Of a stretch of DNA of 64,000 nucleotides, positions 6,732 to 64,000 are shown one piece after another. The first letter of the stretch is position 1. Each line of letters starts with the position of its first letter. The translations under genes were made by a program, and so were the position numbers. The stretch lies in contig JAVXUO010001395.1 of the NCBI GenBank assembly GCA_033065855.1, positions 371,108 through 435,107 on the forward strand, written 5' to 3'. The notes under the pieces are model-generated. The model saw only the letters and a program-made list of their open reading frames with translations. It ran no database searches and was not told the origin of the DNA. The stretch is from Escallonia rubra. Lineage: Eukaryota; Streptophyta; Magnoliopsida; Escalloniales; Escalloniaceae.

Positions 6732-9700
6732 TGTAACATCCCGAAAATCCGGAGCTCCACTGCCCTGAACTCCCGGAACGTTAACCTACCAGATCATATC
6801 AAACCTGTTAAATTTGTTCACTAACGCATATTCGAAATCATGTAATTCAACATCAACTCAGATTTTTTCAAAATACTAGATTACAACTACTTAGCTTAAA
6901 TTATTTCAACTTAGATCCTTCGTAACTCAAATTCCTAAAAACCAATTAACAGTACCAACCCGCACAAGGGCCTTTCTATGCAGTAGTGATGGGCTCATCG
7001 TATTCTCACACAGGCTCTAACCCATTCCTGAACATGCTACAGCTGGTCATCACCTAGAGAATGGAGTCAAATGAAGGGTGAGCTTTTGAGAGCTCAGTAA
7101 GGTTGTACAAGGACTACAAAAAGATTACAAAACGATTCCAAAGAATCCAATCGACGATGATTTCCGAAATACTTCAAACGATTTGAAGTATCATGACGGT
7201 TTCCAAAATGATCAATAAAAGATCAATAAAATTATCACTTCCAAAGTCATCATCTCCAAAGTAAAATGAAAATTTCTCAACAGAAGCACAAATCATTTCA
7301 AGTAATACTTTCCAGTAATTTTCGTAACAGTCACGGCAATATACAGAGCAGATAAAATTAAAAATCAATGTTGATCCTGGGCGGTTGCAATGCCACTCCA
7401 GCAAGCTAACATAGTGTACACATGCATGATGTACCAAAGTAATTACTAGTCCCATTGGGTACTAACCTGCGTTTCATGCAGGATTCAGACCAGCCTTATA
7501 CCGTCTCCTTACAGAACGGATACCCAGGTCAACATAGAAAAATCAACAATATCAATGAGAATTAACATAAGCTCAATCCACCAAAATCAAATCAGATTTC
7601 AATAACCATAACATACAAAAATAAGTCATCATTTGGAATTTCAGAAGAAAATCACAAATAAACAGCAAAACGATTGCGAATAGTTATCAGATTAGGCACA
7701 ACAATTCGGAAGAACGGATACAAACAATTATCAAACTTGCTCAGCATGCATTACAGGCGAGCATTACAAGATTTCCAAATAATCGATTCATGTTCAACAT
7801 TGGGGTTTTCTGGGCAATAACATGCTAATATCAATACATAATTCAGAGTTCGGCATTAGCCATAAGTAGATCAAATGAGTACTTACGAGTACGAGTTATC
7901 AAAATGAGGGTTCGGACGAAAGTCCTTACCTATGGTTCAGATAGAATCATTTATCTAGATCCGCAGCTAAATTATCCTAACCGAAAGTCTTTAGCTTTAA
8001 CCTAAATGAGATAATCAAATCATCAAGACATAGCCTACAGTACAATATTATAACTTAATACGGACTCACACATAATCCCAAAATGAACCTCCATCACCGG
8101 GTATGTAAAAATTACCAAAAAGCCCTTAGATGTAAAATTACCAAAATGCCCCTTTCAGGCTTAAATCACCAAAATGGTCTTCCCGCTTGTAGAATCACTA
8201 TAATACCCTTACCGTATGCAATTTTACCCAAAAAAATACCTTTCTTAACTCAAAATACCATTCGAGATGGTAAATTACCAAAATACCTCCTCGTTACACT
8301 TAAATCATCAAAATGACCTTTCCGTAAGGAAAATCGCTAAAATATCATTACCGTATACAAATTTGGTCAAAAATACCCTTTACAGGTAAATTACTGTAAT
8401 ACTCCTCTCGGGGTGGCAAATTACCAAAATACCCCTGGGGGTTTTCGGCACCGAACAAATCCCAAAACATCTTAAAATACGATTTTTAACATCCTAAAGT
8501 CATTTTTGGGCTAAAAAGTGTTTTAGAGAATTTTCACCCGAAAACGGTGTCCGGACCGATCGCTCAGAAGCCAGTTTTGGCGAAAAATACTTATCAGCCT
8601 TAGAATGGCCCGAACTTTTAGAAGATGAAACATATTAGTAAAATAAGATTTCTCTAAAAATTTCAGATTAAAATAACTTGGTTTGTTATGCCAATTAAAT
8701 AGAGAATTTTTCCTAATCGATACCCTAATTTAACGCCCTTCGCGAACACTGAAAATTTTCCCAAAAAATTCCAAAGCATGCGCCTCGTAAAAATATTGGG
8801 GTTTGCAATTTTGTACTTTGATCCTTATCTATTTATAAAAAATCATATTAAAACTGCCTTAATTAATTTTTACCTTTAGCGACATTTACACTTACTATTC
8901 AAATCAATACACACACTAAAACACCTTGGAAACATGCACTTTCTTCTACTTTACCACTGTTGAAGCACTCAAAAACACGCACTCAATTTACACGCACACT
9001 GCTACATTTCCAACCATTCACCAACCACTCAACACATAATTACACTCACTATACACCCACTTACACCCGAATCACACACAATCATTCACACACCAGTAAC
9101 CCAAACATACACACACACACACGCACACACAACCTGCAACATACATATGAATCACGCACTATAGCCCTTGGCAATACACTAAAAACTCCTAAACTCACAT
9201 TAAGACCACCATACCACAAACACAATCCACATAATTCCTTCACTGCACCAACCGAAACACACACTGAGCACATGGAATTTTCACTCACAAGTATTGAAAT
9301 TGTACAGTGAAATGTATGGAAAAGACTACCTTGAAGCCCTTGTCGCTCCGAAGCCCTTGTCTAATTTTCTCTTCTTTCCTCTCTCTCTCTCTCTCTCTGA
9401 TTTTTGTTTCCCGAAGCTCACTGTCTTGCTTCCTCTTCTCTGTTCTTTCCTTCTTTCCCCGATTTTGTTTCTGCTCTCTGTTCTTATTTTCTCAAATTTC
9501 CATTTGCCTCTCCAAAAGTTTTTTCTCTCTTTTTTTTCCTCTTAAGACTTATCCCCTCCATTTTGTTTATAATATAATGACATTAGTCATTACATAACCA
9601 AGTAGGTGGTGGCCTTACCTTATACTCCATCTTCCAAAATTTGAGACATAATGCATACTTTCAGGAATTGCAATTTAACCCCTCAAGTTTCCATATTTGC

Positions 9701-10025
9701 AAAATACCCCCCCAAATTTCATATAATTATATTTAAGCCCTAATTTTTTTTAATCCTTATTAATTTAACTAAATGTCACTAAAACATATACTATCACTCA
9801 CTTCATCATTTTTCATCACTAAAACCATAAGTTACATTTATGCCCCCAAAGTTTTCTAAAATTACAAAAATGTCTCAAAAATTTGAAAATTATATTTTTG
9901 CCCCAAAAATGTTTTTAAGCTCCTCTCCACTAATAATGCCTGAGCATTACTCAACTTTAACGCCCGTTTATTTTTTGGGTCTCCAATATTCATTTTAACC
10001 CACTCCCAAAGTTCGGGGTATCATA
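6732..10025 (+). mobile_element. Solo LTR, Ty3-type (family A), plus orientation
   Basis: The sequence opens TGTAACATCCCG and closes TTCGGGGTATCATA, flanked by the 5-bp duplication ATTAA (6727-6731 and 10026-10030). No internal coding region or second LTR is present. It aligns over its length with the inverted copy at 36029-39025, for example at the 'gagctcagtaagg' block, the ATTACCAAAATGCCCC array at 8100-8450 and the terminal CCCAAAGTTCGGG. TGTAACA...TGTTACA-type ends and a 3-kb length suggest a Del/Tekay-like chromovirus LTR; that assignment rests on end motifs only. The end has drifted by transitions, so it is an old fossil. Confidence 0.7.
8090..8450 (+). repeat. ATTACCAAAATGCCCC degenerate tandem repeat (in LTR family A)
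   Basis: About ten diverged units of (A)AATTACCAAAATNCCC(C)T, spaced 35-40 bp, lie inside the solo LTR. The same array recurs inverted in the second family A LTR (about 37440-37640) and in the inverted arms around the MULE genes (53920-55250 and 61675-62780). Confidence 0.75.
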
Positions 10026-36028: not shown

Positions 36029-39025
36029 TAAAATATCCCGAACTTTGGGAGCTGTTTAAAATAACCATATGTGACCAAAAAAATAAACGGGAGATAATTT
36101 TGGGCAATGCTCGGTTATTAGTAGAGTATCGAAGCTTAAAAGAATTTTGGGGCAAAAATATAATTTTCAAAAGTTTTGGGGCCCATTTGTAATTTTTGAA
36201 ATTTTGAGGGGGTCATTTTGCAAATTTTGGAAATTTATACCTAGGTGTCAAAGTTTTGGGAAAATGATCACACATGGAACCACCTCTGATGACTAATCCA
36301 ATTAAATAAAAAATTAATAGTTTTGGACTAAATCAAAACAAAGGAAAGAAGGAAAAAAAAGATAGAGGAAATTTCGGAACAGTAAAAAAAAGGAGAGAAG
36401 AGCAAGAACATAACAAGGAGAAGAAAAAAAAACAGGGGGGAAAAAAGGGAAACAGATAGGGGACTTCTGGGAGAAGAAATCAGAGATAGAGAAAGAGGTT
36501 GGGAAAATTCTTTAGGGGTAAACTCTTTATTGTTTTTGTTCGTAAAAAATTCTGGCAGTGTGTGTGTATTACAGTTTGTGTCTGTGTGTTTTGCCGCAGG
36601 GGGAGGGGGAAGCTCGGTGGTGTGTAATTGTGTATTTTGATTGTGAATATGGGTGAATTGGAGGGGGTTGTGAGTTTTTGGTGTGTCCAAGGGTCTGTGT
36701 GTGCGAGTTGTGTGTGTTCAGTGTGTGTCCGTGATTGTGTGTGTTACAGTTGTGATGGTGTGTGTGTGTGTGTGTGTGTGTGTAACTGTTGTGTATTAAA
36801 GTGTTAGAGTGTGAGTTTAGGTATAGGAGTGTGTTTAATGTGTAGCAGTGAGTGTGTGACGACTGAGAGTTCATGGGCGTCGGCTGAAGGAAGAAGAAGA
36901 CAAGTGTGTGTCTTCAAGGTGCAATAGTATGTGTGTGTGTGCGTGTGTTTAATTTGAACAGTGACTGTTTTTGTCACTAAAGATACAAATTATTTTAGGC
37001 AGTTTTTTCATGAATTTTTATAAATATCTCGGACCAAAATTAGACAAAGTCCAAAACAGTAACCCCCAATATTTTCACGAGACGTACACTCTGGAATTTT
37101 TTGAAAATTTGGATCCGCAAAGGACCCTAAATTAGAATACCGATTAAGGGAAATTATCGAATTATTTAGCATAGCAAACAAAACTATTTTAACCCAAAAA
37201 TTTTATGGGAACCCTAGGTTACTGATATGTTTCATATTCTAAAATTTTGTGTCATTCTAAGACCGATAGGTATTTTTAGCCGAACTGGCTTTTGAGCACT
37301 CGGTCCTCACACCGGTTCAGGATTTTCGGACGAAAATTTTACTAAAATACTTTTTAGCCCAAAATTGACTTCTGGATGCAAAAATTAGTGTTTTAATATT
37401 TTTTTTAGATTTTTTCAGTGCCGGGAACCCTAGGGTATTCTGGTAATTTGTCACCCCAAGGGGGTATTTTGGTAATTTTACCAATAAGAGGTATTTTTGC
37501 ATAAATTCACATACGATAAGGATATATTAGTGATTTCACTTATGGAAGGGCTGTTTTGGCAATTTAAGGGTGTGATGGGGTATTTTGGTAATTTTACACC
37601 CTAGGGGCATTTTGGTAATTTTACATACCTGATGAAGGAGGTTCATTTTGAGAATATGCGTGAATCCGTATTAATTTATATGTATTGTTGGTTGTGTTCT
37701 GATGATTTAATTATTCCGTTTAGGGTAAAAGCTAAAGACTTTTCGGTTAAGATAATCTAGTAGCGGATATAGGTAAGGATTTCTATCTGAACCCAGGATA
37801 AGGACCATCGTCCGAAACCTTATTTCGATAACTCATACTTGTAAGTACTCCTTTGATTTACTTATGACTAATGTCGAACACTGAATTATGTATTGATATC
37901 AGCATGTTATTACTCAAAAAACCCCAATATTGAACCTAAATAGATTGTTTAGAAATCTTATTGATGTTCACCTATTATTGCCTGTTGAGCATATTCCATA
38001 AATGTTTGCATTCTTTCTTCTGAAGTATTGTGCCTAAATTCGATAACCGTTCGTAATCGTTCTTGTTGTTTTTGTGGTTATTCAGGAATTCTGAGTGATG
38101 ACTTATGTCAGTATGTTTATTGTTATTGAAACCCGAATGGATTTCGGTGATTTGAGTTTATGTTAATGTTCATTGATATTGTTGATTTGGTGTTGACCTG
38201 GGAAACCGTTATGTGGGGAGGCGTTATAAGGCTGGTCTGAATTTTGCATCAAACACAGGCTAGTGCCCAGTGGGATTAGTAATTATTCCGGTACATCATG
38301 CATGTGTACGGCTTTGCCTGAGTGGCATCACAACCGCCAAGGATCAACGTCTTTGATTTTATTGACATTGTACGTTACCGTGACTGTTACGGAATTGACC
38401 GGAAAGGATTGCCTCAAATGATATGTGTGCATTTTGATCTGTGTGCGTTTTGGAATGATGGCTCTGAAATGTTATTTTATTGATCATTTTCGAACCCGTC
38501 ATGATTGTTATTGTTTATTTTGGTATCTACCTATGATGAATTTATATCATTTTGGAAACCATTGGGTTTTTTTATCGTCAGAAATATTTTGGAAATCATC
38601 GTCTGTTGGATTCTTTGGAATTGTTTTGTAATTCTTTGGTAGTCCTTGTACGACATTACTGAGCTCTCAAAAGCTCACCCTTCATTTGACTCCCTTCTGC
38701 AGGTGATAATAAGCTGTAGCATGTTCGGGAATGGGTTAGAGTTGTGGAGATTCCGGTGAGCCCACCACTACTGTGTAGTGAGACCCCTGCGTGGGTCGGT
38801 ACCGTCAACTTGTTCGATAAGGACTCAAATTTGTAAAGAGCCTAGGTTTTAATAGTTTAAGTTTAAGCAGTTTTATAATCTTGCATTTGAGGAATTTGAG
38901 TTGTTATCGGATTAAATGTTTTGAAGTATGTGTTAATGAATAGGAATTGGTAGGGTTGACTAAACCGGTAGGTTAACGTCCCGGGAGTTTAAGGTGATGT
39001 AGCTCCGGATTTCTGGGGCGTTAAA
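36029..39025 (-). mobile_element. Solo LTR, Ty3-type (family A), minus orientation
   Basis: This is an inverted copy of the family at 6732-10025, flanked by AGTAT (36024-36028 and 39026-39030). On the minus strand it starts TTTAACGCCCCAGAAATCCGG and ends AAGTTCGGGATATTTTA. The TG...CA ends have been lost by substitution, mostly transitions, which indicates age. Internal landmarks are a GT microsatellite (36759-36782), the ATTACCAAAATGCCCC array (inverted, 37440-37640) and the 'gagctctcaaaagctcaccc' block (38661). Confidence 0.7.
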
Positions 39026-46174: not shown

Positions 46175-46186
46175 TGGTATCAGAGC
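46175..46186 (+). other. tRNA-Met primer binding site of the caulimovirid fossil
   Basis: TGGTATCAGAGC is the exact complement of the 3' end of plant initiator tRNA-Met and marks the origin of the circular map in Caulimoviridae. It follows the leader copy here. The same motif also primes LTR elements, but no LTR lies upstream. Confidence 0.8.
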
Positions 46187-47214: not shown

Positions 47215-47556
47215 CTAGTGGTTTGAGTGAACCTGTTCTGAGAAGATGATGCCATCTGTAATAAAACAAGAAACTTTTCTGTGTTTTCTAGGGCAACTTG
47301 AACTCAGATGATCTGGTTCTCCACAGGAAAAACAGGTTATCTTGTTCTTATAAATTCTACTATTATCATATTTTCTAACACTAGGTCCTTGTGCGTCTTG
47401 GAACAAACTATCTGTTGTAGCCGATCCTTCTGGCTCTAGAGTTTTGATTGTTTTGCTGACTAACTCAGCAAAGGCTTCTGCTACTTTCTTCTGAATAACC
47501 TGGGCTTGCCTCTTTGCCCTTTTCTTCTTTTGTCGTCTAAGTTCCGTCTTTCCCAA
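47215..47556 (-). pseudogene. Caulimovirid coat-type zinc-knuckle remnant
   Basis: A lysine/arginine-rich start (LRRQKKKRAKRQAQ) is followed by CFSCGEPDHLSSSCPRKHRK, a CCHC-type knuckle typical of the C-terminal coat region of these viruses. Fossil fragment, minus strand. Confidence 0.65.
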
Positions 47557-47699
47557 ACAGACAGGGGTCTCAGGATTTGAAGTGTCTTTACCAGCTACCT
47601 ATAGGGCTGGACTAGGATTACTATCTCCCGTAATAAATACCAATATAAAGAATCTAAAGATATAGATATTACTAAACAAAATACAAATAGCTTAATAAA

Positions 47700-48187
47700 T
47701 GATATTAGTAGCATATAAGATATAGAAGATGAAACGTACGAAACAACATCTAATAATTCTCAGATCATAAATACTAAAGAAAAATGTAATCTTGTCCATG
47801 AAACACCTTATGTGCTAATGGAAGAAGGAGGTAGTTCAGGAACAACAATTAATAGTAATAGTAGATTTTACACAACTCAACCAGAAAGACCACAATACAA
47901 CTATGGAAATCTTCCTAGAATAAGTGGTAAACTAGAAAATGAAAATACAAATTATGGAAAACCTAGTTATAGGCCCAAAAGTAAAAAAACATCCTTTAGA
48001 ACAAACCTTTAAGATACAAAAGGCAGCAGACCCTTTCATTCTAAATATTACTTCAGTAGATCCACAACAACATAATAATTACATACAAGTATGGAAAGAC
48101 TCAGCCGTAGCTAATTTCATGACAAAACAAATAGATAACATTGGTACAGGTGAAGAAAAGGGCCTTTTGGTCATCAGGAAAATGTAA
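47700..48187 (+). pseudogene. Caulimovirid polyprotein linker remnant, copy 2
   Basis: Close copy of 45480-45790, continuing into VIGPKVKKHPLEQTFKIQKA and PFILNITSVDPQQHNNYIQV. The latter block is also present inverted at 42199-42462. It ends at the solo LTR insertion. Fossil. Confidence 0.5.
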
Positions 48188-50841
48188 CATCCCGGAATTT
48201 TTAGGAACGTTAACGCTCAATCAATCAGTGACACTAAGACAATGATAACCTCATAACCAGATGATCAGTCATCATCAGAGCAACTAAACCTTAAATCAAA
48301 CAATATTCTCCGTGGACTGTCATAAATGATACATCAACTAAGTCTAAAAATTCTTAGATAACAATCACTACCTGCACAGGGTTCTAACAAATAATACTAA
48401 AAATTAAATTCATTTTCTTTCGCCCACTAATCCATGTTCAGGTAACCTACGGCTGGTTATCACCTGCGGAAAGGAAATCAAGGAAGAGAGCTTTCGAGAG
48501 CCCAGTAAGGTCGATCAAAGACTTAAAAACAATGAAAACGATCCGGACGATTTTACATTTAAACCAAATAACAACTTTTTAACGGAGAACATAACGATTA
48601 AAAATGATTTTTCTATATACAATCAAACGACAATTTTAAAATGGTTTTCAAAGAAACCCATAGCATTTCAATGTAAACATAGGGAGGAGTATCAACTCAT
48701 TTTTCCTTAAATAAATAACCATTTTTAAAACACTTAAAGTGCAATAAACATAAATAGGAAACGTTGAACATGAGCAGTACAGAAGCAAAGTCACCCCGGC
48801 AGTGCTCGATACGTTTTACATATGCATATGTACACTGACTAGTTTATCTAGGTACTAGTAACACATCCAACAGGCCATCCTTATAACGCCAACAATACAT
48901 ACCATCTTTATGGCTCCCAAGTTACTAACTCATGTCAACATTGAGAAGTAATAAATAGAATTAAAAAATGCTTTACGATGAGCAATCAATAAACATATCA
49001 AATGTACAATGGATTCCAAGATGAGATGAAACAGAATTCCAAACGATCGCTATAAGGCTCAATTTAGGGTTTCATGGGCAATTTAAAAATATTTTTATAT
49101 CAATCAATAAAATCAACATTCGATCTAGTTTGTAAAACTGTTGTTATAAGCATTTGAAATCAGAATAATGAAATAGGGTTCAGATAGAATTCCTTACCTC
49201 GGTCCAAGCTAAGCGATGCTACCAATCCTCGATCAATATTTTCTGAATAACCTAGATTGGCAATCCATTTGTCAGAACATAATCTATGCTACAATACTAT
49301 AACCCTAATATCATATACCCCCACGTGCTCACTTCTAACCCCCAAATCGCTCAACTCAAAACGTGCCTCGCACGCGGCCAACCTAACCGAGAACCTTGTA
49401 CGATCCTTAACGCGTGTTGATATTCCAAAATTCAAAATAAAACACTTTTATAGCTTACAACATTATAAAAAGTGAATTTTCTGAATTTTTTAATTAAAAT
49501 AATTTCCTTAAATGCAATAAAAACCCATAAATTATCAAAATTACTTTTAGCTGGAAACTAAGTCCCATAATTTTTATACAATATATAAAATATATAAAAA
49601 TTATAAAAATTATAGAAATTGAAATAAAAATTTAAAAGGCACTAAAACTATTTCTTTATTTTTCGTTTTGCTAAATTCAATGCGATACTGAAAATGATAA
49701 CAAATCGACTCCAAAAATCATCAAACTTTTACTGATTCTTTATTATACTATAAAAACATTTATATAATTTTCCCCAAAACATTTTCAGAGTTTAAAGACT
49801 CCAAACGAATTTTGAAAATCTGAAATTTCAGAAAATACTAAAAATTCATACAATCTAAGAAAATTATGAAATTTTGCCAAAAATTCTAATATAGTCTATC
49901 GTACTATACTGTAAAGTTTTAAATTCTAATGATAACCGTGCACTAGTCTATGCACGCGATGAACTCAAACGAGATCCTAATATCCGATCCTCACTTCCTT
50001 TCTTCTCTTTACTTTCTCTGCCTCACAGAACCTCAACATACACCACAGTCAGCATAACCACACACAACAGCACACTCTCTTCACACAGTACCCTCACAGT
50101 TCACAAAACCTCACATATATATACACTAATAATACACTACACTCATCTTCCTCACCAACCCACTCATCAAACCCATTACACATACATTTTGTATCTCCCT
50201 CCTAAGCTGCCATGCAGTTTCCTTCCTCTACCATTACTCATATTCTTAGACACATACCATACGCACAAACACACATTGGCCACACCATACTCTCCCGTCC
50301 ATTTTCTGAAACCCATTTCACACGCACACATCCTTCACTTGCACAGCCCACACTCGGCCGTAATCCCTATGCACCCTACACTACGCTGCCTATGGCAGCT
50401 TCTCCTTCAACCCCCTTTTTCACTTTACTACACACACCACCACGCATACCATGGCTGCCACCACGGCAGCCCGTCCTCTTCTCATTATTTTGTATGCACA
50501 ACACACGCACATACACCACAAATGCTTATTATCTCCCAACGCATACACATCTCAAAGTATAAACTACAACCTACAAAAAGAAAACCTTGTCTTTACCAAG
50601 CCCAACAGTAACAACCAGCCATTGTCTTTCTCCCTCAAATCCAGACACATACGCACACAACACACACAATCGCATACACACACCTCCGCACAGCACTCAC
50701 GCACATAGAAAACACACATATTAACTCATATATATACACACGGTCACACCCATCGCAAGGCACACAGGTTCTTGAAGCCAACGTTAACCGATCTCCGTTC
50801 ACTCTCTCGCCCGATCTCTCATCCACGACGTCAACCCATGA

Positions 50842-50887
<46 letters not shown>

Positions 50888-51609
50888 GACAAAAACGTTG
50901 GAGTTAAAGAGCCCTTACCGGAAAATTCGTCGGAGAATGTTCCGTTGATCTCCTTCTCTGAACCTTCTATCTTTTTCTCGATTGGGTCTGGCCGCCTTAA
51001 GGGGTGGCTGCCAGACTATGTTCTCTATATATATAGGTTAAAAAGAAACCCTATTTTGAAAAATGAAAACCCTATTCGTTTAAATGTCGCTAAAACCTCT
51101 AACCCAAACTTAATATTGCGAAATGATTGAAAAATGAACCGTTATAAGAAATTAAGCGTTATGAAAAATTTTACCGATCGAATACGCTATCTCGATTAAC
51201 CAAAACGTCGCTAATAAGAACGCCTATGCTAAAAATAAGTTTTAATTGTCGCTTAAAAAAATACATATCAATGCTCATGAATTATTTCATTGTTAAAGTA
51301 CACATCAAAGTTAAATATATAATGAGTTACATCGTTGCTAAAAATATGTCAACGTTAAGTAAGTTTTAAATTGTCGCTAAAGTATATCGACGATAAGAAA
51401 ATAAATCCATCACTAAAAAAAAATATAGCGATGCTAAGTTAAAAGTATTGTCGCTAAAAATTACCAATAAAATTTTCACTCGTTCAAATCAACGTTAAAT
51501 CTTTGTATAAAAGTCGCTAAAATCGTTAAACGCAAATATTGATGCTAGCCAATAAAAATTTCGTCGCTAAATTTTTTAAATAAATCGGAAAAAATATCGG
51601 GGTGTTACA
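48183..51609 (+). mobile_element. Solo LTR, Ty3-type (family B), copy 2
   Basis: The sequence runs TGTAACATCCCGGAATTTTT...AAATATCGGGGTGTTACA, flanked by GAAAA (48178-48182 and 51610-51614). It has no internal region. It is inserted into caulimovirid debris, so it is younger than that. It carries an AT microsatellite (about 50840-50884) and, near its end (51060-51570), about eight GTCGCTAAA-like words. Open frames at 50189-50708 lie in CA-rich LTR sequence and are not convincing genes. Confidence 0.85.
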
Positions 51610-51614
51610 GAAAA

Positions 51615-52618
51615 GGTCCGATTTTAGGATTTTTAATTTGAAATCTAGATCCTACGTGGATTATTTCTAAACTGTTACCTTCAAAATTTATCGTACTTTT
51701 ACCTCTATCAACAAAGCTAGTATAAAGAGAAGGAAATACTGGGCTTGTTTGGTTTAGTTAAGGTCTGAAACTAGTGGTTTGAGTGAACCTGTTCTGAGAA
51801 GATGATGCCATCTGTAATAAAACAAGAAACTTGTCTGATTCTACTGCTAATTGTATGGGATTATCTTAAGATAAAATCTTTCTAAATAATAAATCAGCAA
51901 TAGAATTATCTACTCCTTTGACATGCTGCCATTCTATTTTATCTATTCTATAATTACTTAAAGATGTCATAAACTTTAGCCATCTATTTGTATATCTAGA
52001 GTCTTTGTTTTTGTTATATCTAACTATGGCTAAAAAGATTCTAGACTTTCCAGATAAATTAGAAGGACTTAAACAAATACAAGCCTTTTTAGGACTAGTA
52101 AATAGTGCTAGCATATATTTTAAAGACATTGGACATTGGCAAATTATTAGGACTTTTGTATAACAAAACTCGTAAAACAGGTCAAAGACATTTTAAATAG
52201 ATACACCAATCTTCTTTCTAAACACCAGTCGTCACAACCCTCTATTTCCGGGCTTAAAGCAATACCTAGTCTGGCATCACACGCAGCCAGTAAAGACAAA
52301 ACAGGTCATGTTAAAGCTAAAAATTTGCTTAAAATTTCAGGAAAACCTGAGAGTTCAGGAGTTGTTTAATTGCGTACGTTTCATCTTATATATCTTCTAT
52401 GCTACTAATATAATTTATTAAGCTATTTGTATTACAAGTTATGAGTAACATTATAAGAATATTATTTTTTTTTCTAGTCCGGCATCACAGGCTGCCGGTA
52501 AAGACAAAATCAGAATCAGATAATGACTATGAAGACTATTTAAATAGTTATGATGGAGATAACGATGAAAATTATCCATGGGATGAGCTAATCTAGACAA
52601 CACCTTAGGAGGAATATG
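51615..52618. mobile_element. Caulimovirid fossil, part beyond the solo LTR
   Basis: This continues the viral debris. A second RNase H fragment (51866-52020, minus strand, YNKNKDSRYTNRWLKFMTSL) directly abuts, in opposite orientation, a reverse-transcriptase-to-RNase-H connecting piece (52027-52165, plus, FPDKLEGLKQIQAFLGLVNS). Then comes a partial copy of the acidic ORF tail (52500-52600). It is broken and rearranged. Confidence 0.7.
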
Positions 52619-52662: not shown

Positions 52663-52665
<3 letters not shown>

Positions 52666-52782
52666 GGCCGATCAGGGTCTACCACCGCAACAAGGAGTTG
52701 CGGTTTGTATCATTGAATTTTTTTTACACCCACCCACCCCCCAACCGTCCTTTACCTGGCATGCGGTCCCCTTCCTGCCTGC

Positions 52783-53017
52783 CACGTGGCATGCGGGCGG
52801 TCCCCATTCCCTGCCTACCACGTGGCTGGCGGTCCCTCCTTCCCTGCTTGCCACGTGGCAGGTGGTCCCCCAGTCCCCCCTTCCCTGCCTGCCACGTGGC
52901 CCCCCTGCGGTCCCCCCTGCCTAAACCGCAACACCTTTTTGCGGTCCCCGCCCCCAAAATCCGCAACACCTTGTTGCAGTCCCCCCCCTCATTTTGCGGC
53001 CCCCCCCCCGCCACGTG
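52783..53017. promoter_or_regulatory. Cluster of five CACGTG G-boxes
   Basis: CACGTG cores lie at 52783, 52819, 52852, 52893 and 53012, the first four spaced 33-41 bp within a GC-rich tandem repeat. Several are in the extended palindrome (T)GCCACGTGGC(A). This is the binding site of plant bZIP/bHLH factors. It may act on transcription in the element's left arm, about 2.4 kb upstream of the PMD-Ulp1 gene, or may simply be the repeat unit. Confidence 0.55.
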
Positions 53018-54010
53018 CCCGTTGTTGCGGTTCCCCCGTCCTTTTTCCAACCTTTCTCTGTTTTCTTTCATCTCTCTCCCTCACTTCTCCCTCTTTATAA
53101 GCCCTTCTCCCCGAACCCTTTCTTCCACTCCCCATCATCTTTACCAACACATTACCAACACAGACTTCATACTCCATATCTCACTTACATAATCTCCACA
53201 ACAATACAAACAAAAAAATTTTACGCTAGAAGATCGGTGGATTTTTCTTGATACCAATATATCAAGTTAAAACAAGTAAGTATTTTGAATTTTCTTATAA
53301 TTCAATGTTAATTTCAAATTGTTCTTACCAATGAGTTGTTTAAATTGTGTTTAGCTTAAATTGTTCTTATCATAGTCTAAAATTCGTGTTTTTTTGAGAG
53401 TTTGAAATTAGGGATTGAACTAGTGTTTATTAGCGAATATTCATTCGAAGTCCAAAAATAGTCATTTTGTGGGGCATCAAAATTTGGATTTTTCACGAAT
53501 TTATAAAAATTAGCTAGAGCTAGATTTTACCAAAGTGCAAAAAAGATACCCTAGTTATTTTTAAAAGAACTATATCAGGGAAAATGTTTAGATTTTTCCC
53601 TGGACTAGAAAGGGGTCAACTGATACGGGGAACCTTGTAACTTCGCAGTGTAATTTAAAATATCAAACTAGCGCGATTTCGAGCGAAACTTTTATGAGAA
53701 CCCTAGGATATTGGGAAGTTCCGTTTCCTCGGAATTTGTGCCATTCCGATGTCGTTAGCTATTTTTTTGGCCGAACGGGCTTTTAAGCGCTCGATCCGGA
53801 CACCGGTTCGAGATTTTTGGGCGAAACTTTTGTAAAATACCTTTTAGATCAAGAATGAATTCAGGAATCTTAAAATAGCATTTCAAAGCACTTTTGAGAT
53901 TTTTCGATGCCAGGGGGCATTTCGGTAATTTGCCACCCCGAGAGGGGTATTTTGCTAATTCTACACTGTTAAATTTTTGCAATGTTAATTCTACAATTTT
54001 AAGTCAACGA

Positions 54011-54600
54011 GGTGTTACGCTTCCCTTTTTTTTCTTTTTTTCGTGGGCCCCCTACCCCCCTGCCCTTTTTTCTTTTCTCTTTCTTACGTGGTCCCCACCC
54101 CGGTTCCCGTGGGCCCCCCACCACCCACCCCCGGTTCCCGTGGGCCCCCACCCCCACCCCGAACCGCAACTTTCTCTATGACTACTTTTTTCTTCATGGC
54201 CCCGTGGGCCCCCACCCCCTTCCTCCCCCACCCCCGAACCGCAACAAGGAGTTGCGGTTCTCTGTGACTACTTTTTTCTTCGTGGCCCCCAGCCCCCAGC
54301 CCCACCCCCGTGGGCCCCCACCCCCTTCCTCCCCCACCCCCGAACCACAACAAGGGGTTCCGGTTCTCTGTCCTTCCCATTTTTTTCTTCGTGACCCCCA
54401 CCCCGTGGGCCCCCCCTGGTTCCTTTTTTGTTTTCTTTTGCGTTTTTTGTTTTTTTTTTGCGTGTCCTTTTTTGTTTTCTTGTTTTCTTTTGCGTATCCT
54501 TTTTCTTCTCGTGCATGGCCCCCCACCCCCAAACCGCAACGAGTTGCTGTTCTCTGTGGCCTTCCACTTTTTTCTTCGTGGCCCCCACGGGCCCTTCTGA
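54011..54600. repeat. GC-rich minisatellite block with palindrome units
   Basis: About five irregular units of 75-130 bp: CCCCCACCCCCGAACCGCAAC - (AAGGAGTTGCGG)TTCTCTGTG - ACTACTTTTTTCTTCGTGGCC. The same kind of sequence lies at the outer right arm (63700-64000, inverted). Its flanks at 53945-54010 and 54600 interrupt otherwise arm-like sequence, so it looks inserted or expanded. Confidence 0.7.
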
Positions 54601-55445
54601 AGCCGTTAGCTATTTTTTTCGCCGAACGGGCTTTTAAGCGCTCGATCCGGACACTGGTTCGGAATTTTTAGGCGAAACTTTTGTAAAATATTTTTTAGAT
54701 CAAGAATGATTTCAGGAAGCTTAAAATTGTATTTTAAAGCACTTTTGAGATTTTCTGAAGCCAGGGCATTTTGGTAATTTGCCACCCCGAGATGGGTGTT
54801 TTGGTAATTTTTCCGGTAAAGTTTTTCAAAGGACTTCTTAGTCCAGAAATGTAAGTAAAACACCTGAAATGTTGTTTTGAAGATGATTGTGGGACGTTAG
54901 GGTGATAATGATGCCCCGGGGGCATTTCGGTAATTTGTCGCTCAGCGGGGGTATTTTGGTAATTTAACATTGTAAAATTTTCCGACTTACTTTTAGTTCG
55001 GGAAGGGGTGTAAGACACCCGGAAAGTTATTTTTTTCAGTTGTTCTGAGATGTTTGTTGAGGCGATGGCTGTCAGGGGGTATTTTGCATAAGTTGGGGGT
55101 GTTTTGGTAACTTTCTCCCTTAAAATACCCTGAGGAAATATTTGGTATATAGTTGACGTAATACATTTAAAAAGTGGTTTTAAAGCGATTTTGTGGTGTT
55201 GGTGGTGTAGCGGCCATCGGGGGATATATTGGTAAATTGCCACGTTGGCTCTAAATTTTAGGGAAGTAGAGTAATTAAGCGTTCGGAGTGGTGGGAAGTG
55301 AGGAATTGTTTTAATACATTGAAATAATGAGATAATGACTATTGCTAACGCGTTGGTAAGCTAGGTTTAAGATCCAGTTATATTTTTGGAATGTAAATAT
55401 TATGGACGTTAAGTTGGTTTACGATTATATTTTGTTCTTAGAGAT

Positions 55446-58220
55446 ATGGATTTCAACCCCGGACCTCATGATACATCAATCCTATACGATGACGATGACC
55501 ACGTCGCGAGGTACGTATTTGACGGTGTCGATAGGGGTGTTTTGGAAACAATTCAAAGCACAAGTCACCTCGAAGAGTGGGTACTGAACGAGGAACAAAT
55601 ACAACTATTACACCGTCAAAATTTGGCCATGTTCACCGATTGCGGGATTTGGTCTCGGCATGACGATTGCCTTATATCCGCTCTAGTTGAACGATGGAGG
55701 GGCGAGACGAACTCATTTCACTTCTGGTTTGGTGAAATGACTATTACATTAGAGGACGTCGGATTTATACTTGGAATCCCATGTCACGGCAAACCCATTA
55801 CTTCGAGCAAAACGTCTGCATCCATAGCAAAGATGGCTAGGCAGTATTTCCCGAGAATCCCGAGGGAAGCTCTTACGTCTAATGGCATAAAACTTAAATG
55901 GCTGAGAGAGCAGTACGGCGTGCTACCGGATGAATACACTCCTCATGATTTGGTGACGTATACGAAGGCATTCTTTCTGTATATTATTGGAGCCATATTA
56001 CTTCTGACGCATTCGAAAAACACGGTGCATCCGAAGTATATGGTGTTCTTGGAGGATCTTGAGGAAGTATACTCGTATTCGTAGGGTTCAGCTGTTCTTG
56101 CGCACCTATATCGAGCACTGCATAAGGCTAAGAGATTGGATGCCAAGTCTATTGCCGCCTGCCTGACTCTATTACAGGTATGAGCATTTATATTCTTGTT
56201 TTGACGTGTCAAAATATTCGTGATTAAGACCCTAATTCCATATAATGTTTGCATTCACAGGTTTGGTCTTACGAGAGGCTACCCATGGGACGTCCACAAC
56301 CGCGGGAATATTCTGATGAGACGTGGCCTAGGGTGTGGGCCTGGGGGCCGGAGACCAACCGGAAGAGACGGGTAAACCCTCACCACCATCTACAGTTCTA
56401 TCGGGGGGAACTAGATATGCTGGATGCACCCCAGGTGACGTGGCAGCCATATGGCAAGGTGATGCATCGGTTAGATGAGTGGTGTTGGCAACTTCCGGTA
56501 TCGTAAGTGCTGGCAGGTTTGGTTCGGGTGCCGCTTATTCACTTCGAAGTATGTGAGTTTCAAATGCCCGATCGAGCTATGAAGCAAGCTGGCTGTCTAC
56601 AAGGGATACCAAAACCCCCTGTAGACATGCGGCCATACAGGAGTATTCGAGGGCCGAAATTCGAGGTGCCTGATGCCTTGAATTTGTTGAGCGACGAGGT
56701 GGAACAGTGGAATACTTGGCAAGAAACGTATGGTAGCCTTGTATCGCTCAAGCACGACGGCACCAGTCTTGAGGAGTACCTGCAATGGTTTCTCAAGGTG
56801 ACGCGCACGAGGGTGAATCGCCCTTCCCAGCCGACGAAGACATTGTATGCGCCACGTGAGTTCTATGACCAGTTCTGGGCATTGAACATTGTAAGTCACC
56901 CTAGTGTTGTTTCAATATTTATTTGCGCACCTTATCGACAATGCCTGAAATGATGACGATGATTTTTCTATGCATGTTTTTTAGGTTGACCAGGGCACTG
57001 AGGTGTTTAAGCAGCTGGAGTCGTTTGACTGGTTTGTCGCGCAGGCTCCTGTCAGTCTCAAGAGGTCCATTGAGAGGTACAAGACTGATCTTCACAACTT
57101 CAGTGTTGCGTACCGGGGTTACCAAGGGGAGCCGTCTAGTCGCTTGTCTCCTGACGCGTACAACTCTCAGCCCTAGAGTCAGGTGGGGGAGCCGTCTAGT
57201 CGCTTACCTTCTGACGCGTCTTTGCCGCAGATGGAATTCTAGGAGCCGTATAGTCGCTTGCCTCCTGACGCGTACGACTCTCAGCGCCAGAATCAGGTGA
57301 CCCAAGTAGGAATCCAGGCCTCGCGCCCAAGCATTCGGTCGGACAAAGAACAAGCAATGAAGCCATTGAGGCCGGACAAGAGGGGTTGGATCGACTAGAA
57401 CTACTTCAGGCATGAGTCTATCGATTCAACAGACTTTCCTCTTGCGACATTCCTAGGTCATGAGGATATGAGAACGTTGGCGCTGGAGACAGATATTTCA
57501 AATTTTGTCATGAACGCATATATAGATCTGCTCCGGATTAGAGAGCTACAGTTTAACCATTCTGAATATTTGAAGCTTAACATGTATCCCACTTATTTTG
57601 TGGAATTAACGGTGAGGGAATTCACAGAATGGAGGAGGCGAGGGGCAGGCAGGGGTAAGTGGAAACTAGCTGGAAACGTGTTAGGCATGTTGAACTCAAA
57701 CTATCAATGCCAGGCTGCTCATGCGAACATTATCATGATACCTTGTCATCATGCAAACCACTGGTTCCTATTAGTTCTCCATCCAGCGAACAAAAGGGTT
57801 CACATATACGATAGCCTAAGGGAGGACGATCCTGGACAGCTACTGGCACAGATGTACAGCGAGTACATCACTTTAGTGGTTAGTTTTTATTTTTTGACCT
57901 TGGCTCATAGTATATTCTTCTTGTTACATAGGCTTGATGACCTTTTTTATTGTTAGATGCAGACTACTGTCCTCTCGCTAGCGTGCGAACGGCCATCGGG
58001 GGAGCCTTGGACGGTCGTGATGATAAAGGATCGACCAAAGCAATATAACAGTCACGATTGCGGGATTTACGTCCTCAAGTACATGGACTACATTGCTCGC
58101 TCGGAGGTGCTCAAATATATGTCGTGGACTAGGGAGGATGCCTTGATGTTTAGGTATAGGATAGCCTGGGAGCTGAAAAAGAAGGAAGCTAGACGCCTTC
58201 ATTACCATTATCCTAACTAG
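55446..58220 (+). pseudogene. PMD-Ulp1 gene (plant mobile domain + C48 cysteine protease), four exons, five in-frame stops
   Basis: Exons 55446-56177, 56261-56890, 56985-57878 and 57957-58220 are bounded by GT...AG and keep phase 0 throughout, giving 840 codons. Start MDFNPGPHDTSILYDD. Exons 1-2 carry the PMD/aminotransferase-like mobile domain (WVLNEEQIQLL, HFWFGEMTITLEDVGFILGI). Exon 3 has a three-unit repeat (EPSSRLPPDAY-like, 57120-57280). Exons 3-4 hold the C48 peptidase: His713 (HHANHWFLLVLHP), Asp730 (HIYDSL), Cys787 (YNSHDCGIYVLKYMDY). In-frame stops lie at 56082 (TAG where the family has Trp), 56504 (TAA), 57174, 57240 and 57396 (TAG), yet there is no frameshift and every splice site is kept. 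The protease would cleave SUMO-like conjugates; its role in the transposon is unknown. It is probably inactive as it stands. Confidence 0.85.
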
Positions 58221-59165
58221 CGTGGCTAAGGTGTAATGAGCAAAGAGCACTGCACAAAAAAGAAATGTACATATTTTTTCGCAAGCTATGAATTTGGCGC
58301 TAAAGTGTGCGCGAATAGACCTTTCATAGGACGCATTCGAAAAAATTATGTGTCTCGTTTTTCACCGAAATTCATAGAAATGAGCTAACTAGCGTGCCTA
58401 AGGTGCAACGAGTGAAAAAAACAGACAAAAAAAAATCACAACATTTCTCGCAAGCTACACATTGGGCACTAAAGTGTGCCCGAATAGGCCCTTCGCAGGA
58501 AAACCCGAAAAAATAATGTCTCGTTTTTCGTCGAAATTCATAGAAATGGGCTAAGTAGCGTGCATGAGGTGCAATGAGCGGAAAAAAACTGACAAAAAAA
58601 ATTACAACATTTTTCGCAATCTAAGCATTGGGCGCTAAAGTGTGTGCCCGAATAGGCTCTTCGTATGAAAACCCGAAAAAATAATTTGTCTCTTTTTTCG
58701 CCGAAATTCATAGAAATGGGCTAAGTAGCGTGCATGAGGTGCAATGAGCGAAAAAAACAGACACAAAAAATTACAACATTTTTCGTAAGCTAAGCATTGG
58801 GCGCTAAAGTGTGCCCGAATACGCCCTTCATAGGGAAACCTCAAAAAATAATTTGTCTCGTTTTCCACCAAAATTCATAGAAATGAGTTAACTAGCGTGC
58901 ATGAGGTGCAACGAACGAAAAAAAAAGTGACAAAAAAATTACAACATTTCTCGCAAGCTACGCATTGGGCGCTAAAGTGTGCCTGAATAGGTCCTTCATA
59001 GGGAAACCTAAAAAAATAATGTGTCTCGTTTTTCACCGAAATTCATAGAAATGAGCTAACTAATGTACCTGAGGTGCAACGAGCGAAAAAAAAGTGACAA
59101 AAAAAATTACAACATTTCTCGCAAGCTACGCATTGGGCGCTAAAGTGTGCCCGAATAGGCCCTTC
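58213..59165. repeat. Tandem array of about 167-bp units between the convergent genes
   Basis: Units starting CTAACTAGCGTG (or close variants) lie at 58213, 58385, 58551, 58721, 58888 and 59056; periods are 166-172 bp and the last unit is partial (about 110 bp). Each carries 'gcaagctaYgcattgggcgctaaagtgtgcccgaat' and 'tctcgtttttcRccgaaattcatagaaatg' segments. The stop codon of the PMD-Ulp1 gene (58218-58220) lies inside the first unit. Confidence 0.95.
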
Positions 59166-59273
59166 CAAAAATATTAGTAATCCACAAACCAAATCACAAA
59201 TTAAAGATTTCACAAACCAAATCACAAATATAAACATTATAAAAGTTCAATTTATACAACTGAAACATTAACC

Positions 59274-61565
59274 CTAACACTCTTCCTCATCATCGTCCTC
59301 CTCGACCATACTGCCAGGTTCGATACCTAGCACTTTATAATGATTTCTCTTGTCATGATCAGTCATCTTATTACACAACGCACACCTTCGCAATTTTTTT
59401 GACCCGTTGCTTCTTCAAAATGATTCTTCATACGTATTGATCGTTTTCGCCCTTTTTGTTTGAGAAATAATTGGATCAAAAATGTCATCCTCCTCACGTT
59501 GCAGGCTAGTGCTGTCAATGACTGGCTGTGAAGCTCGATTGAATCTACCGGCTGGAGTCGTCCGAGGGTCCTGTCTTTCTGGTAATGCCATCCTAAACTG
59601 TGCATGCTTAGCCTTATCCCGTGCGGCTGCTTCAACTTGATACCTGTACCCATCATATGTTGACGCTGCATCCAATGATAAACCGTGCATGATGTTACAA
59701 AGGTGATTATATCGCAGCGTCTCAGATTGCTCGAAATCAACTGAAACATTGGGCACGTAAGGAATGTGACCGTGGACTCTATTGGCATCCTTCGTCCACC
59801 GATCCAAGATATACTCTGGAGGGATTTCACGAGCATTCTTGGCGCTAAAATACCTCAAAGCGTGTCGACAGAGTATACCTTTATGCTCAAACAGTTGACA
59901 GTTGCAATTAACAAACCCGGTGTCCATACAAACTGCTACGGTAAAATGTCTTCTGTTCCTCGGAGCCGACGAAGAGCACGGATTGGCGAAATTCGTCACA
60001 TTTGTCAAAGCATAAACCTTGAGCTCCCTGGTGGAATACTCGTGCAACTTTGTCATGCTATATTGATTCGACTTTAGTAGTTCCTCTTGAAACTGTCTAA
60101 ACATTTCCTTGGTATAGACTTGAGCCGCATGAGCCTCCAAAGGTGAAAAAACTACTATGGCTCTTTCTCTTACAACTATAGCCGCGTCGGCTTCTCTCTC
60201 AAGGAAAAATTGCCTGTCAAGGGCTTTCTGCATCTCTAGTACGAACTCTGTTATACTAGAAGAATGGCCTACGTACCCATCAAAGAATGAATTCATACCT
60301 TCGCTTCTCGAGGTCGTAGTCATTCCGGCTGCAAAAAACTTCTTCGTGTAGGCACCGACCCACTGTGTCTTGATCTCATACAACGATTGTAACCATTCAT
60401 GATTGTACAAAGAGTAGTCATCCATTAACTTGGCCCACCTCTCCTCGAACACGTCTACCGTCAACGATTTCTTCACACATGTATTAAAGTCAGTCTTGAA
60501 TGTCGGATGGTAGGCATATACATTGTGAAGCCGTTCGGGATATTTGTTGCTTATGTGCCATGTGCACAGGCCATGGTGAGTATCTGGCAGGACCTTAGCG
60601 ATTGCATTTTTCATTGCCAGATCTTGGTCGGTGATGATGGTCTTTGGAGGAATATGATACATTGCTTTAAGCCACGTTTCAAATAACCACGTAAATGACT
60701 CCTCCGTCTCATCCCTAAGCAGGGCAAAGCCAAACAAGATTGACTGATAGTGGTGGTTCACCCCGGTGAACGGAGCAAAAGGCATAGAGTACTTATTTGT
60801 GCGGTATGTGGTGTCAAACGTCACAACATCCCCAAAATTTTGGTAAGCAGCTCTAGAACGGGCATCCGCCCAAAATATAGTACTAATGTGGTTCTCGTCA
60901 TCCAGTCGGAGACTGTAGAAAAAGCCCGAATTCTCACTCTGAAGGCTCCTGAAGATATCAAGTGTAGCTTGAGAATCACTCTTACCGAAAGACTCTCTCC
61001 TCTGAACACGAAGTTCATTTCGAAGGTCAACTGCGTTGAAACTCAACTTGTCAATCCCCCCAGCCTGGCTTGAGAGAAATCCCATCATTTTAGAAGGTGG
61101 AATTTTAGCCTCGGCCATTGTAAATATCAGTTCCCTGTGTACCGCGCCTATTTGTCGGTGCTGATGAATTTGACCAATCTTACTAGGGGTCATCAACTGA
61201 TGATTATGGCTCAAATCCACTCCCGTCACAACCCAATGATTTTCATTTTTCCATTGTACTGCATACACATGGGCCTTGCAGTCGGTACCCGGAAATGTGT
61301 CCCGTTTTCTTTGTCTTGATGGCCCTTCGTCACTGATCCGAACAACCGGGGGTACATGCGGTGCTCCTCTATGACACTCAAATAGTCTTCCACAAATTTG
61401 ATCTGTATTCGCCCGTTTTCTAGTCGTCTTAATTCTAATACCGAAACCTATCGTTTTCGAATATGCTCTATAGTATGCTTCAACTTCGTCCAGTCTTTGA
61501 AAAACTTGACCCAAGTAAGGTGGATCAGAATCTTCACAAAAAATATTTCCTCCAGTTGCATCCAT
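59274..61565 (-). CDS. FAR1-type MULE transposase, with an in-frame TGA before the last 46 codons
   Basis: The frame runs from MDATGGNIFCEDSDPPYLGQ (61565) to a TGA at 59415-59417 (716 aa), then stays open in the same frame to TAG at 59274. A FAR1 DNA-binding domain lies at residues about 25-125 (YYRAYSKTIGFGIRIKTTRK, C58/C65 and C96 with H120/H122 as likely zinc ligands). The MULE catalytic domain is at about 245-425, with D251 (TFDTTYRTN), D313/D315 (IITDQD) and E422 (SRSEGMNSFF). The SWIM zinc finger is at 554-568 (CNC...CRH). The extra 46 codons (RSNGSKKLRRCALCNKMTDH and an acidic tail) look like the C-terminal knuckle of related transposases, so the TGA probably arose from CGA. The main domains are intact. 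It would bind the element ends and cut and paste it in the nucleus. It is intronless and convergent with PMD-Ulp1. Confidence 0.9.
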
Positions 61566-61674
61566 ATTTATACTGAAATCTAAAAAATAAAAATTATATC
61601 ATTCTCAACAAGTCATAGAATTAAATAAAAGAAGAATAAAAATTATTTAAAAGTCATTCGGAAAATTTGTGTAA

Positions 61675-64000
61675 TGTAAAATTACCAAAATAGCCCCCGA
61701 TGAGTGGCAAATTACCGAAATGCCCCCGGGGGTTCATTATCACCCTAACGCCCCAAATCAGCTCAAAACAACCTTTCAGGTGCTTTGCTTACATTTCTGG
61801 ACTAAGAAGTCCTTTGAAAAACTTAACACTGTAAAATTACCAAAATGCCCCCTACCATCAGAAAATCTCAAAAGTGCTTTGAAACGGGATTTTAAGCTTC
61901 CTGAATTCATTCTTTAAAATAACTTTCCGGGTGTCTTACACCCTTTCCCGAACTAAAAGTAAGTCGGAAAATTTTACAATGTTAAATTACCAAAATACCC
62001 CCGTAAGCTACAAATTACCGAAATGCCCCTGGTGATTCATTGTCACCATAATGCCCCGCAATCAGCTTCAAAATAACATTTCAGGTGTTTTAATTACATT
62101 TCTGGACTAACAAGTCCTTTGAAAAACTTTGCCGGGAAAATTACCAAAACACCCCTCTCGGGGTGGCAAATTACCAAAATGCCCCCTGGCTTCAGAAAAT
62201 CTCAAAAGTGATTTAAAATGCTATTTTAAGCTTCCTGAATTCATTCTTGATCTAAAAAGTATTTTACAAAAGTTTCGCCCAAAAATCCCGAACCGGTGTC
62301 CGGATCGAGCGCTTAAAAGCCCGTTCGGCCAAAAAAATAGGTAACGGCTTCGGAATGGCCCGAATTCCTGGGAAATGGAACTTCCCAACATCCTAGGGTT
62401 CTCATAAAAGTTTCGCGCGAAATCGCGCTAGCTTGATATTTTAAATTACACTGCAAAGTTACAAGGTTGCGCGTATCAGTTAACCCCTTTCCAGTCTTTG
62501 GAAAAATCTGAAATTTTTCCCTGATACAGATCTTTTAAAAATAACTAGGGTCTCTTTTTTGCACTTTGGCAAAATCTAGCTCTAGCTATGTTTTATAAAT
62601 TCGTGAAAAACTGTCTAATTAAGTTTTCACCTTTAGCGACAATTACGTTTCGTATTCACACTAAAAAAACAACATTTCAGGTGTTGTAATTACATTTCTG
62701 GACTAACAAGTCCTTTGAAAAACTTTGCCGGGAAAATTACCAAAACACCCCTCTCGGGGTGGCAAATTACCAAAATGCCCCTGGCTTCAGAAAATCTCAA
62801 AAGTGATTTAAAATGCTATTTTAAGCTTCCTGAATTCATTCTTGATCTAAAAAGTATTTTACAAAAGTTTCGCCCAAAAATCCCGAACCGGTGTCCGGAT
62901 CGAGCGCTTAAAAGCCCGTTCGGCCAAAAAAATAGGTAACGGCTTCGGAATGGCCCGAATTCCTGGGAAATGGAACTTCCCAACATCCTAGGGTTCTCAT
63001 AAAAGTTTCGCGCGAAATCGCGCTAGCTTGATATTTTAAATTACACTGCAAAGTTACAAGGTTGCGCGTATCAGTTAACCCCTTTCCAGTCTTTGGAAAA
63101 ATCTGAAATTTTTCCCTGATACAGATCTTTTAAAAATAACTAGGGTCTCTTTTTTTCACTTTGGCAAAATCTAACTCTAGCTATTTTTTTAAAATTCGTA
63201 AAAAACTGTCTAATTAAGTTTTCACCTTTAGCGACAGTTACGTTTCGTATTCACATTAAACACACATAACCCAAAAGCTAGTTCAATCCATAATTTTAAA
63301 CTCTAAAAAACACGAATTTGAGATTATGGTAAGAACAATGTAAGCATAACACAATTTAAACAATCTACTGGTAAGAACAATTATGGTAAGAACAATTTGA
63401 AATTAACAATGAATTATAAGAAAATTCGAAATACTTACTTGTTTTAATCTTCTAGCGGTTATCCACCGATTTTTGACCGTAGAATATTTTTGTTTATGTT
63501 ATCGTGAAGATTATGCAGATAATCTTTGGAGTATGAAGAAGATGGAAGAAAGAGTTGGAAAAGATGAAGTAGAGTGAAAGGGAGGGTTCTGTCCAGAAAG
63601 AATTAGGGAGAACGAATTATAAAGAGAGAAAAGCGAGGGAAAGAGAAGAAAGAAGACCCGTGAGTCTGAACATCACAGACTCACGGGTTTTCTTTCTCTC
63701 TTTCTCTATTCGTGGGGGGCAAGTAGGGAGAAGCCAAGTGTCGTTGGGAGGGGGCAAATTGTTGGGGGTGGGGGACACAAAGAAAAAAGTGAAAGGCCAC
63801 GCACAAGGAAACAACAAAGTGGAACAACAAGAAAGGAAAACAAAAAAAGAACAACAAAGTACACGCAAAAATGTTCAGGCAAAGAAAACAAAACAAAAAA
63901 GGAACCGGGGGTGGGGGGCCACAAACAGAGAACCGCAACAAGGAGTTGCGGTTCGGGGGTTGGGGTGGGGGCCCACGGGAACCGGGGGGTGGGGGTGGGA
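61675..64000. repeat. Right inverted arm of the Mutator-like element
   Basis: Starting after a 110-bp AT-rich leader upstream of the transposase, it holds ATTACCAAAATGCCCC-type arrays and 'ctggactaaSaagtcctttgaaaaact' blocks (61796, 62102, 62698). It also has the segment 'cccgaaccggtgtccggatc' twice, and an outer purine-rich region (63520-63700) with the inverted DNA CCGTGAGTCTG...CAGACTCACGG near 63658-63688. It then enters GC-rich minisatellite and runs out of the window. No gene is supported in it. Confidence 0.7.
62075..63262 (+). repeat. 596-bp direct tandem duplication in the right arm
   Basis: 62075-62670 and 62671-63262 are nearly identical, with a handful of substitutions and short indels. 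The junction is at '...ctaaaaaaac|aacatttcag'. The left arm has no equivalent duplication of the full unit, so this arose after the arms separated or was lost there. Confidence 0.9.

Follow-up and report, generated by a model that had tools for sequence, protein, structure and literature searches.

An LTR-type sequence module in both arms of a multicopy Mutator-like transposon family of Escallonia rubra

Several features of plant Mutator-like elements (MULEs) have been described in separate systems. MuTAnT and SaTar elements are MULEs of TA microsatellites, and different elements abut in one microsatellite (PMC4486113, PMC5907723). The terminal repeats of MULEs with tandem terminal inverted repeats hold promoters (PMC3310237). 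Plant mobile domains (PMDs) borne by MULEs have been suggested to serve anti-silencing (PMC5418596), and the tandemly repeated targets of VANC offer a model for how a motif array may be read; VANC6 motifs occur in AT9TSD1, which is called unrelated to VANDAL (PMC5735166). Here we analyse a stretch of 64,000 nt from Escallonia rubra (GCA_033065855.1, contig JAVXUO010001395.1, positions 371,108-435,107, forward strand; the whole stretch is called the window), which ends in a MULE with a FAR1-type transposase and a convergent PMD-Ulp1 gene. A module in both arms of this element is found again inside two solo long terminal repeats (LTRs) of the same window, and the alignments support the view that the two element classes share this DNA by descent.

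The match between the arms and the solo LTRs, here called family A, had been noticed in an initial annotation of the window. The four strings quoted in it were recovered within 0-3 bases of the positions given there, and the similarity scores were far above those of simulated sequences. The two LTRs are:

6732..10025, plus strand: solo LTR A1, with the 5-bp target duplication ATTAA and the module at 8095-8915
36029..39025, minus strand: solo LTR A2, with the 5-bp target duplication AGTAT and the module core at about 36940-37490

The right arm (62100-62700) scored 310 against A1 and 339 against A2, compared with 38 on the reverse strand and a maximum of 58 among 100 first-order simulated sequences per LTR. 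For the left arm the scores were 234 (A1) and 302 (A2), with a simulated maximum of 71 and reverse-strand values of 43-45. The sharing is confined to a block at about 8095-8915 of A1 that consists of two parts, an array of the motif AAATTACCRAAATRCCCCY and a core of about 0.5 kb. When the repeated motif was left out, the core still scored 142 and 153 (simulated maxima 47 and 38). Across the window the motif gave 31 matches with up to three mismatches, against 0.27 expected; of these, 27 fall within the blocks common to the arms and the two LTRs, two in other parts of those LTRs and two outside. Pattern scans of viral contigs yielded 0 and 5 matches, each of the five being a single motif with no other similarity, and a protein scan gave no match. 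Full arm copies of the core were 0.60-0.65 identical to A1 and A2, and the partial left copy 0.73-0.74, whereas the value was 0.76 between A1 and A2 and 0.87-0.99 among the arms. In all seven tests, family-A sequence outside the shared block matched the arms no better than the 100 simulations did, and no LTR ends were found in the arms. Since the flanks are not shared, the module is internal and shared termini are excluded. The module lies inside the LTR and 0.8-2.6 kb inward in the transposon; of the earlier statement that two element classes share terminal DNA, the sharing thus stands and the word terminal does not.

The element is built as follows; family C, named in one of the rows, is a further repeat family described below.

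52663..52673, no strand: left terminus GGGGGCCGATC, directly after a (TA)n microsatellite, like the ends of other copies
53276..53281, plus strand: candidate 5' splice site GTAAGT of the leader intron of the PMD-Ulp1 gene, proposed from the sequence
53430..53961, minus strand: module core, left arm copy 1, 87-88% identical to the right-arm cores
54003..54587, minus strand: GC-rich stretch with hairpins that in alignments reads like a second, nested outer arm
54588..55309, minus strand: module, left arm copy 2, with a partial core (54588-54815), motif array and two units shared with family C
55446..58220, plus strand: PMD-Ulp1 gene, predicted exons 55446-56177, 56261-56890, 56985-57878 and 57957-58220
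58275..59165, no strand: 168-bp tandem repeat, 5.3 copies, between the convergent genes
59415..61565, minus strand: transposase, intact frame of 716 codons with FAR1 DNA-binding, MULE and SWIM domains
61676..62131, plus strand: array of the motif AAATTACCRAAATRCCCCY, right arm, mostly doublets about 30 bp apart
62132..62665, plus strand: module core, right arm copy 1 (repeat unit 62070-62665)
62728..63266, plus strand: module core, right arm copy 2 (repeat unit 62666-63260, 98% identical to copy 1)

The MULE domain of the transposase (PF10551, E 5.8e-33) occurs together with the FAR1 and SWIM domains. PMD and Peptidase_C48 domain matches cover the PMD-Ulp1 gene nearly end to end, and the window copy of this gene contains five in-frame stops. 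The arms are inverted, with 80-93% identity over stretches of 290-940 bp, and the right arm carries a 596-bp tandem duplication, the two copies of which are 98% identical. The right terminus of the window copy is missing from the assembly because the window stops where its contig ends. The stretch that reads like a nested outer arm aligns at 54117-54171 with 63944-63999 and, judged from the alignment, at 54288-54588 with 63768-64000 of the right arm. A hairpin unit, ACCGCAACAAGGAGTTGCGGT, is repeated in the outer arms at 52684-52704, 54238-54258 and 63932-63952, and similar units adjoin the ends of other copies.

A TATA-like TTATAA (53095-53100) stands upstream of the GTAAGT donor at 53276, with a short first exon between them, and the leader intron of the PMD-Ulp1 gene is predicted to end at 55441. 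The transposase arm has a mirror donor at 63438-63433. The donor string ACAAGTAAGTATTT occurred 19 times in the fetched loci, in 8 of the 19 with a TATA-like string at most 230 bases upstream. As predicted from these signals, both genes would have a 5'-leader intron that holds the module. The modules of the two arms are in opposite orientation, as had been stated initially; the description of this orientation as outward has as yet no functional meaning.

The element belongs to a multicopy family. When the 596-bp unit was searched against the same genome (566 Mb, 3222 contigs), at least 107 matches were obtained (40 of 3343 candidates scored), and from the 77 matches of at least 500 bp (30 shorter rows were left out) we assembled at least 40 arms on at least 35 contigs. 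Two arms were present on five of these contigs, and they were inverted and outward in all five. Among the arms, 11 had one module unit, 23 had two, four had three and two had four. Pieces of the transposase and PMD-Ulp1 genes in the fetched copies were 70-98% identical to those of the window, with the exception of two distant relatives. In addition, proteins related to the transposase and to the PMD occur in the protein database on contigs of like size (P0001 and P0123 on contigs of 7311 bases, P0012 and P0127 on contigs of 11583 bases). This suggests that each pair shares one contig and that the two genes probably travel together elsewhere too.

Ends of the form GGGGGC.GATC, or close variants, were seen beside TA repeats in eight cases, the window and L017, L022, L023, L026, L028, L030 and L031. 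Six of the TA-flanked ends were retrieved with a pattern demanding TA repeats and one more with a BLAST query that itself contained TA, and their share is biased upward because the TA repeats were part of the pattern and the query. A target duplication of 8-11 bp cannot be read at these ends, since they lie in TA repeats. A different type of end, GGGAGCTGATC, was seen next to the family within one shared microsatellite in L022; L030 has the same arrangement, with this end one base shorter. Positions 2460-4533 of L022 form a stretch of 2.07 kb with inverted GGGAGCTGATC ends, whose TA microsatellite is common with the right end of a family member; the stretch reads as a second kind of TA-associated element. 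Contigs C1384, C270, C2332 and C1080 (the window end; L016, L020, L025) end in or near an arm, and the arms seem to break the assembly.

The arms had been proposed to be homogenised. However, units from opposite arms of one element were on average 0.928 identical (n = 18), compared with 0.925 for units of different elements (n = 182), and opposite arms being no more alike than different elements, present homogenisation is neither evident nor needed. Tandem units within one arm had a mean identity of 0.937 (n = 10). Exceptionally alike were one C1260 pair (0.985) and the tandem pair of the window (0.983).

The family-A LTRs were characterised by a genome search with A1 6732-8095, which gave at least 56 rows from 40 of 2650 candidates scored. 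Together, two LTRs from the window and 8 + 31 from genome searches made 41 family-A-type copies, of which 32 had an A-type core, two (at one locus) a variant core and seven no core in the fetched piece. A 5-bp target duplication was present in three of the five copies checked (A1, A2 and L038); in L039 it was not in register, and the 3' end of L035 was not found. A family-A pair on C2610 was considered as a full-length element and dropped, the longest frame between the two having at most 141 codons. A family-A LTR interrupts a Ty3/gypsy polyprotein in L039 (585-4020), with RNase H on one side and integrase, identified by frame reading, on the other. As these flanks belong to one Ty3/gypsy element, the LTR is an insertion there, and L039 was not used to define the LTR sense.

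The module closest to that of the arms was met in a variant form. Up to the A1-equivalent position 8560, the L034 LTR showed block means of 0.77-0.89 to seven other LTRs, compared with 0.59-0.67 beyond it; from there to 8840 it was 0.77-0.82 identical to the arm. Alignments of the right arm with L034 and L065 covered 520-547 columns at 77% identity. A search with the L034 module (40 of 4170 candidates scored) found itself and at least 39 further places at 79-85% identity, besides one short extra row. At 36 of the 40 variant places the match extends to base 572 or further of the 575-base query, whereas the homology with the arms ends at about base 514 for L034 and somewhat later for L065. Variant modules were 73-81% identical to the arms. 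The window solo LTRs were rejected as the direct donor, the full arm cores being only 0.60-0.65 identical to A1 and A2 compared with 0.73-0.81 to the variants.

Among the variant places inspected for context, C1684 (two LTRs) and C1519 had the A backbone around the module. C422 (two copies), C2257 and C1173 had no A backbone but were mutually similar, and they were named family C; for this reason a subfamily B of LTR A as the only home of the variant was rejected. Family C and the arms share a further unit of about 120-140 bp upstream of the core. It matched the arms over 115-142 bp (74-77%) in C422 and over 120-153 bp (70-73%) in C1173 and C2257; in A1 and L034 nothing matched beyond the motif. 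In the window these units lie at 54812-54937 and 55170-55309 in left arm copy 2 and at 61705-61825 and 62011-62125 in the right arm. Since family C shares with the arms a unit that family A lacks, it is the leading candidate for the donor. In C422 the two copies form a direct repeat with a spacing of 7.9 kb and are 98.0%, 98.7% and 100% identical over three adjoining pieces of together about 1.28 kb; they resemble the two LTRs of one element, and family C is probably LTR-type. Downstream of the core, L034 and L065 continue to match family C for 153-207 bp (73-92%), which implies that the exchange between A and C was larger than the module. L034, L065 and C1519 look like A/C chimeras. L034, L065 and L077/L083 are family-A LTRs with a C-like module, and in L034 and L065 the downstream part is C-like as well; all of these LTRs look recombinant.

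A tree was built from 15 of the 32 A-type modules, 7 variant modules and 6 arm modules (R1, R2 and L1 of the window and one each from L021, L028 and L029). Variants and arms grouped together with a support of 100/100, and the arms formed one clade, also with 100/100. The modules nearest to the arms were those of the C422 pair (0.80-0.81). The mean identity was 0.829 among variant modules and 0.922 among the sampled arms. The one arrangement tested with variants inside the arm clade was rejected by the approximately unbiased (AU) test (p = 0.0008). As the module is present in two other families and the arms join one variant, one transfer into the MULE suffices, whereas the reverse direction needs two. 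In keeping with a capture, both of the two related MULE genes examined, a PMD gene in L030 (37-47% identical, with one isolated motif-like string before it) and a transposase in L015 (35-56% identical), were preceded by no motif array and no clear core.

We therefore favour, with a probability of about 0.6, one old capture of an LTR-type block before the family spread, followed by tandem repetition to 1-4 units per arm. An ancestral TA-microsatellite MULE would have acquired, once, an internal block (motif array and core) of another mobile element, the likeliest source being an LTR of family C or of a near relative. In each arm this block would have landed inward of the promoter and first exon, within the leader introns of the two convergent genes, and both arms would have held it before the family was amplified, with the tandem repeats arising later within arms. 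Gap repair during transposition is one example of a possible capture mechanism. It is both the single event and the LTR-to-MULE direction that we infer, the direction being the most economical one, and the same applies to any effect of the module on expression. The capture proposed in the initial annotation is retained in this form, with the variant of family C and the A/C chimeras, which are nearer to the arms, in place of the window's family A as the source.

Several observations weigh against this account. The position of the arms inside the variant group had a weak support (52/76), and the variants as a sister group were not rejected (AU p = 0.325); with nested and sister placement undecided, the direction rests on parsimony. 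Over the A1-equivalent positions 8841-8915, the identity of L034 is higher to A1 (0.73) than to the arm (0.68). The contexts of the variant were inspected at seven of the 40 places (C1684 twice, C1519, C422 twice, C2257 and C1173). No Pfam match was present in the 1.5 kb sampled between the C422 repeats, and the ends of the family C element were not found. Copies were picked via the module, and family members without it would have been missed. The two MULE relatives in L030 and L015 are distant ones, and the arm core scored 45 before the L015 gene, a value reached in 2 of 100 simulations; positive controls in this search gave 310-986, the true arm 986.

The strongest competitor, to which we assign considerably less weight, holds the module to be an independent unit, such as a small repeat or a host sequence, with separate entries into LTR families A and C and into the MULE. 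It is indeed found in at least three contexts (family-A LTRs, family C and the MULE arms) with unrelated flanks on one side. However, the A/C exchange exceeded the module, the arms have more sequence in common with C than with A, and no copy with its own ends was seen among the seven places checked for context. Slightly less credible again is a reverse transfer, in which MULE arm sequence was copied into a retrotransposon and founded the variant module. The undecided tree placement gives it some room, and L034, with its family-A backbone, departs from A chiefly in the part starting at 8561, which is arm-like. However, the arms are homologous to A-type LTRs over the module too, which calls for a second exchange, the variants are more diverse than the sampled arms, and placing variants inside the arms was rejected in the arrangement tested. 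As to what the module does, the plain reading is a passive leader sequence with tandem slippage. A bolder proposal, which we regard as improbable, is that it is a functional cis-element moving between unrelated transposons (families A and C, A/C chimeras and the MULE), its arrays serving as targets of PMD-Ulp1. PMD-Ulp1 would then act on motif arrays as a VANC-like anti-silencing factor, and array-bearing LTRs would share in the protection. There is very little left in favour of ordinary LTR insertions with their own 5-bp target duplications, or of a gene cassette between two opposite LTRs as initially suggested: the module is inverted between the arms, but these lack LTR ends and any other A-LTR sequence, the arrangement recurs in many copies, and the ends are GGGGGC.GATC-like beside TA repeats, which refutes both forms as far as the examined copies go. 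Low-complexity convergence on a AAATTACCAAAATGCCCC repeat would account for the excess of the motif in both arms and LTRs, but it has next to no chance, being refuted by the homology of the motif-free core and by the 77% identity of the right arm to L034 and L065.

Two further features of the window lie outside the MULE. At 17078-23213 there is a Copia element with an intact pol frame of 1306 codons (18512-22432, minus strand) and repeat pieces 98-99.8% identical; on account of this frame and these identities it is probably a young insertion. Positions 41000-52600 hold dense scrambled repeats with an RNase H-like frame (44250-44723, minus strand) and on visual inspection resemble remnants of endogenous pararetroviruses.

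TA-associated MULEs, tandem terminal repeats, Ulp1 and PMD genes on MULEs and the capture of foreign DNA are already known singly. In the titles and abstract beginnings searched we found no description of LTR sequence in MULE arms, which does not prove its absence from the literature. What seems to be new is their combination, with both arms of a multicopy DNA transposon holding an LTR-type block. Gene fragments are known to be captured by transposons; in this family a class II element appears to have acquired the central part of a retrotransposon terminal repeat, which is present in both arms, was retained through amplification and became repeated. The family offers a multicopy case for asking whether regulatory sequence crosses between unrelated transposon classes, and it is a warning for repeat annotation, where such arms may be masked as LTR.

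In its G-run ends beside TA repeats and its FAR1-type transposase, the element resembles MuTAnT/AutoMuTAnT of Medicago and SaTar/AgS-MULE of guayule and rice, the AutoMuTAnT transposase being Jittery-like and that of the window having FAR1-type domains. As in MuTAnT and SaTar, different elements abut in one microsatellite. Unlike AutoMuTAnT, which is 4.9 kb long with a single open reading frame, the window element has a left arm of more than 2.5 kb that contains an LTR-type module, and it carries a PMD-Ulp1 gene in convergent orientation. Its terminal regions are tandemly repeated like those of MULEs with tandem terminal inverted repeats (Ferguson and Jiang 2012, PMC3310237), but the tandem unit of the window (596 bp) is mainly LTR-type module. 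A Mutator-like transposase beside an Ulp1-type protease is also found in Kaonashi/KIU and in the Ulp1-carrying MULEs of grapevine, melon and rice, and a PMD captured by a MULE is known from MULE-borne PMDs; in contrast to these systems, the present element has PMD and Ulp1 in one predicted gene. Both domains are listed in the protein database for one Heracleum protein (P0124). Finally, Pack-MULEs likewise hold foreign DNA captured by a transposon, and the chimeric LTRs of BARE-2 and Veju show foreign sequence within a retrotransposon LTR or body, whereas in the E. rubra family it is retrotransposon-type sequence that lies in the leader region of a DNA transposon.

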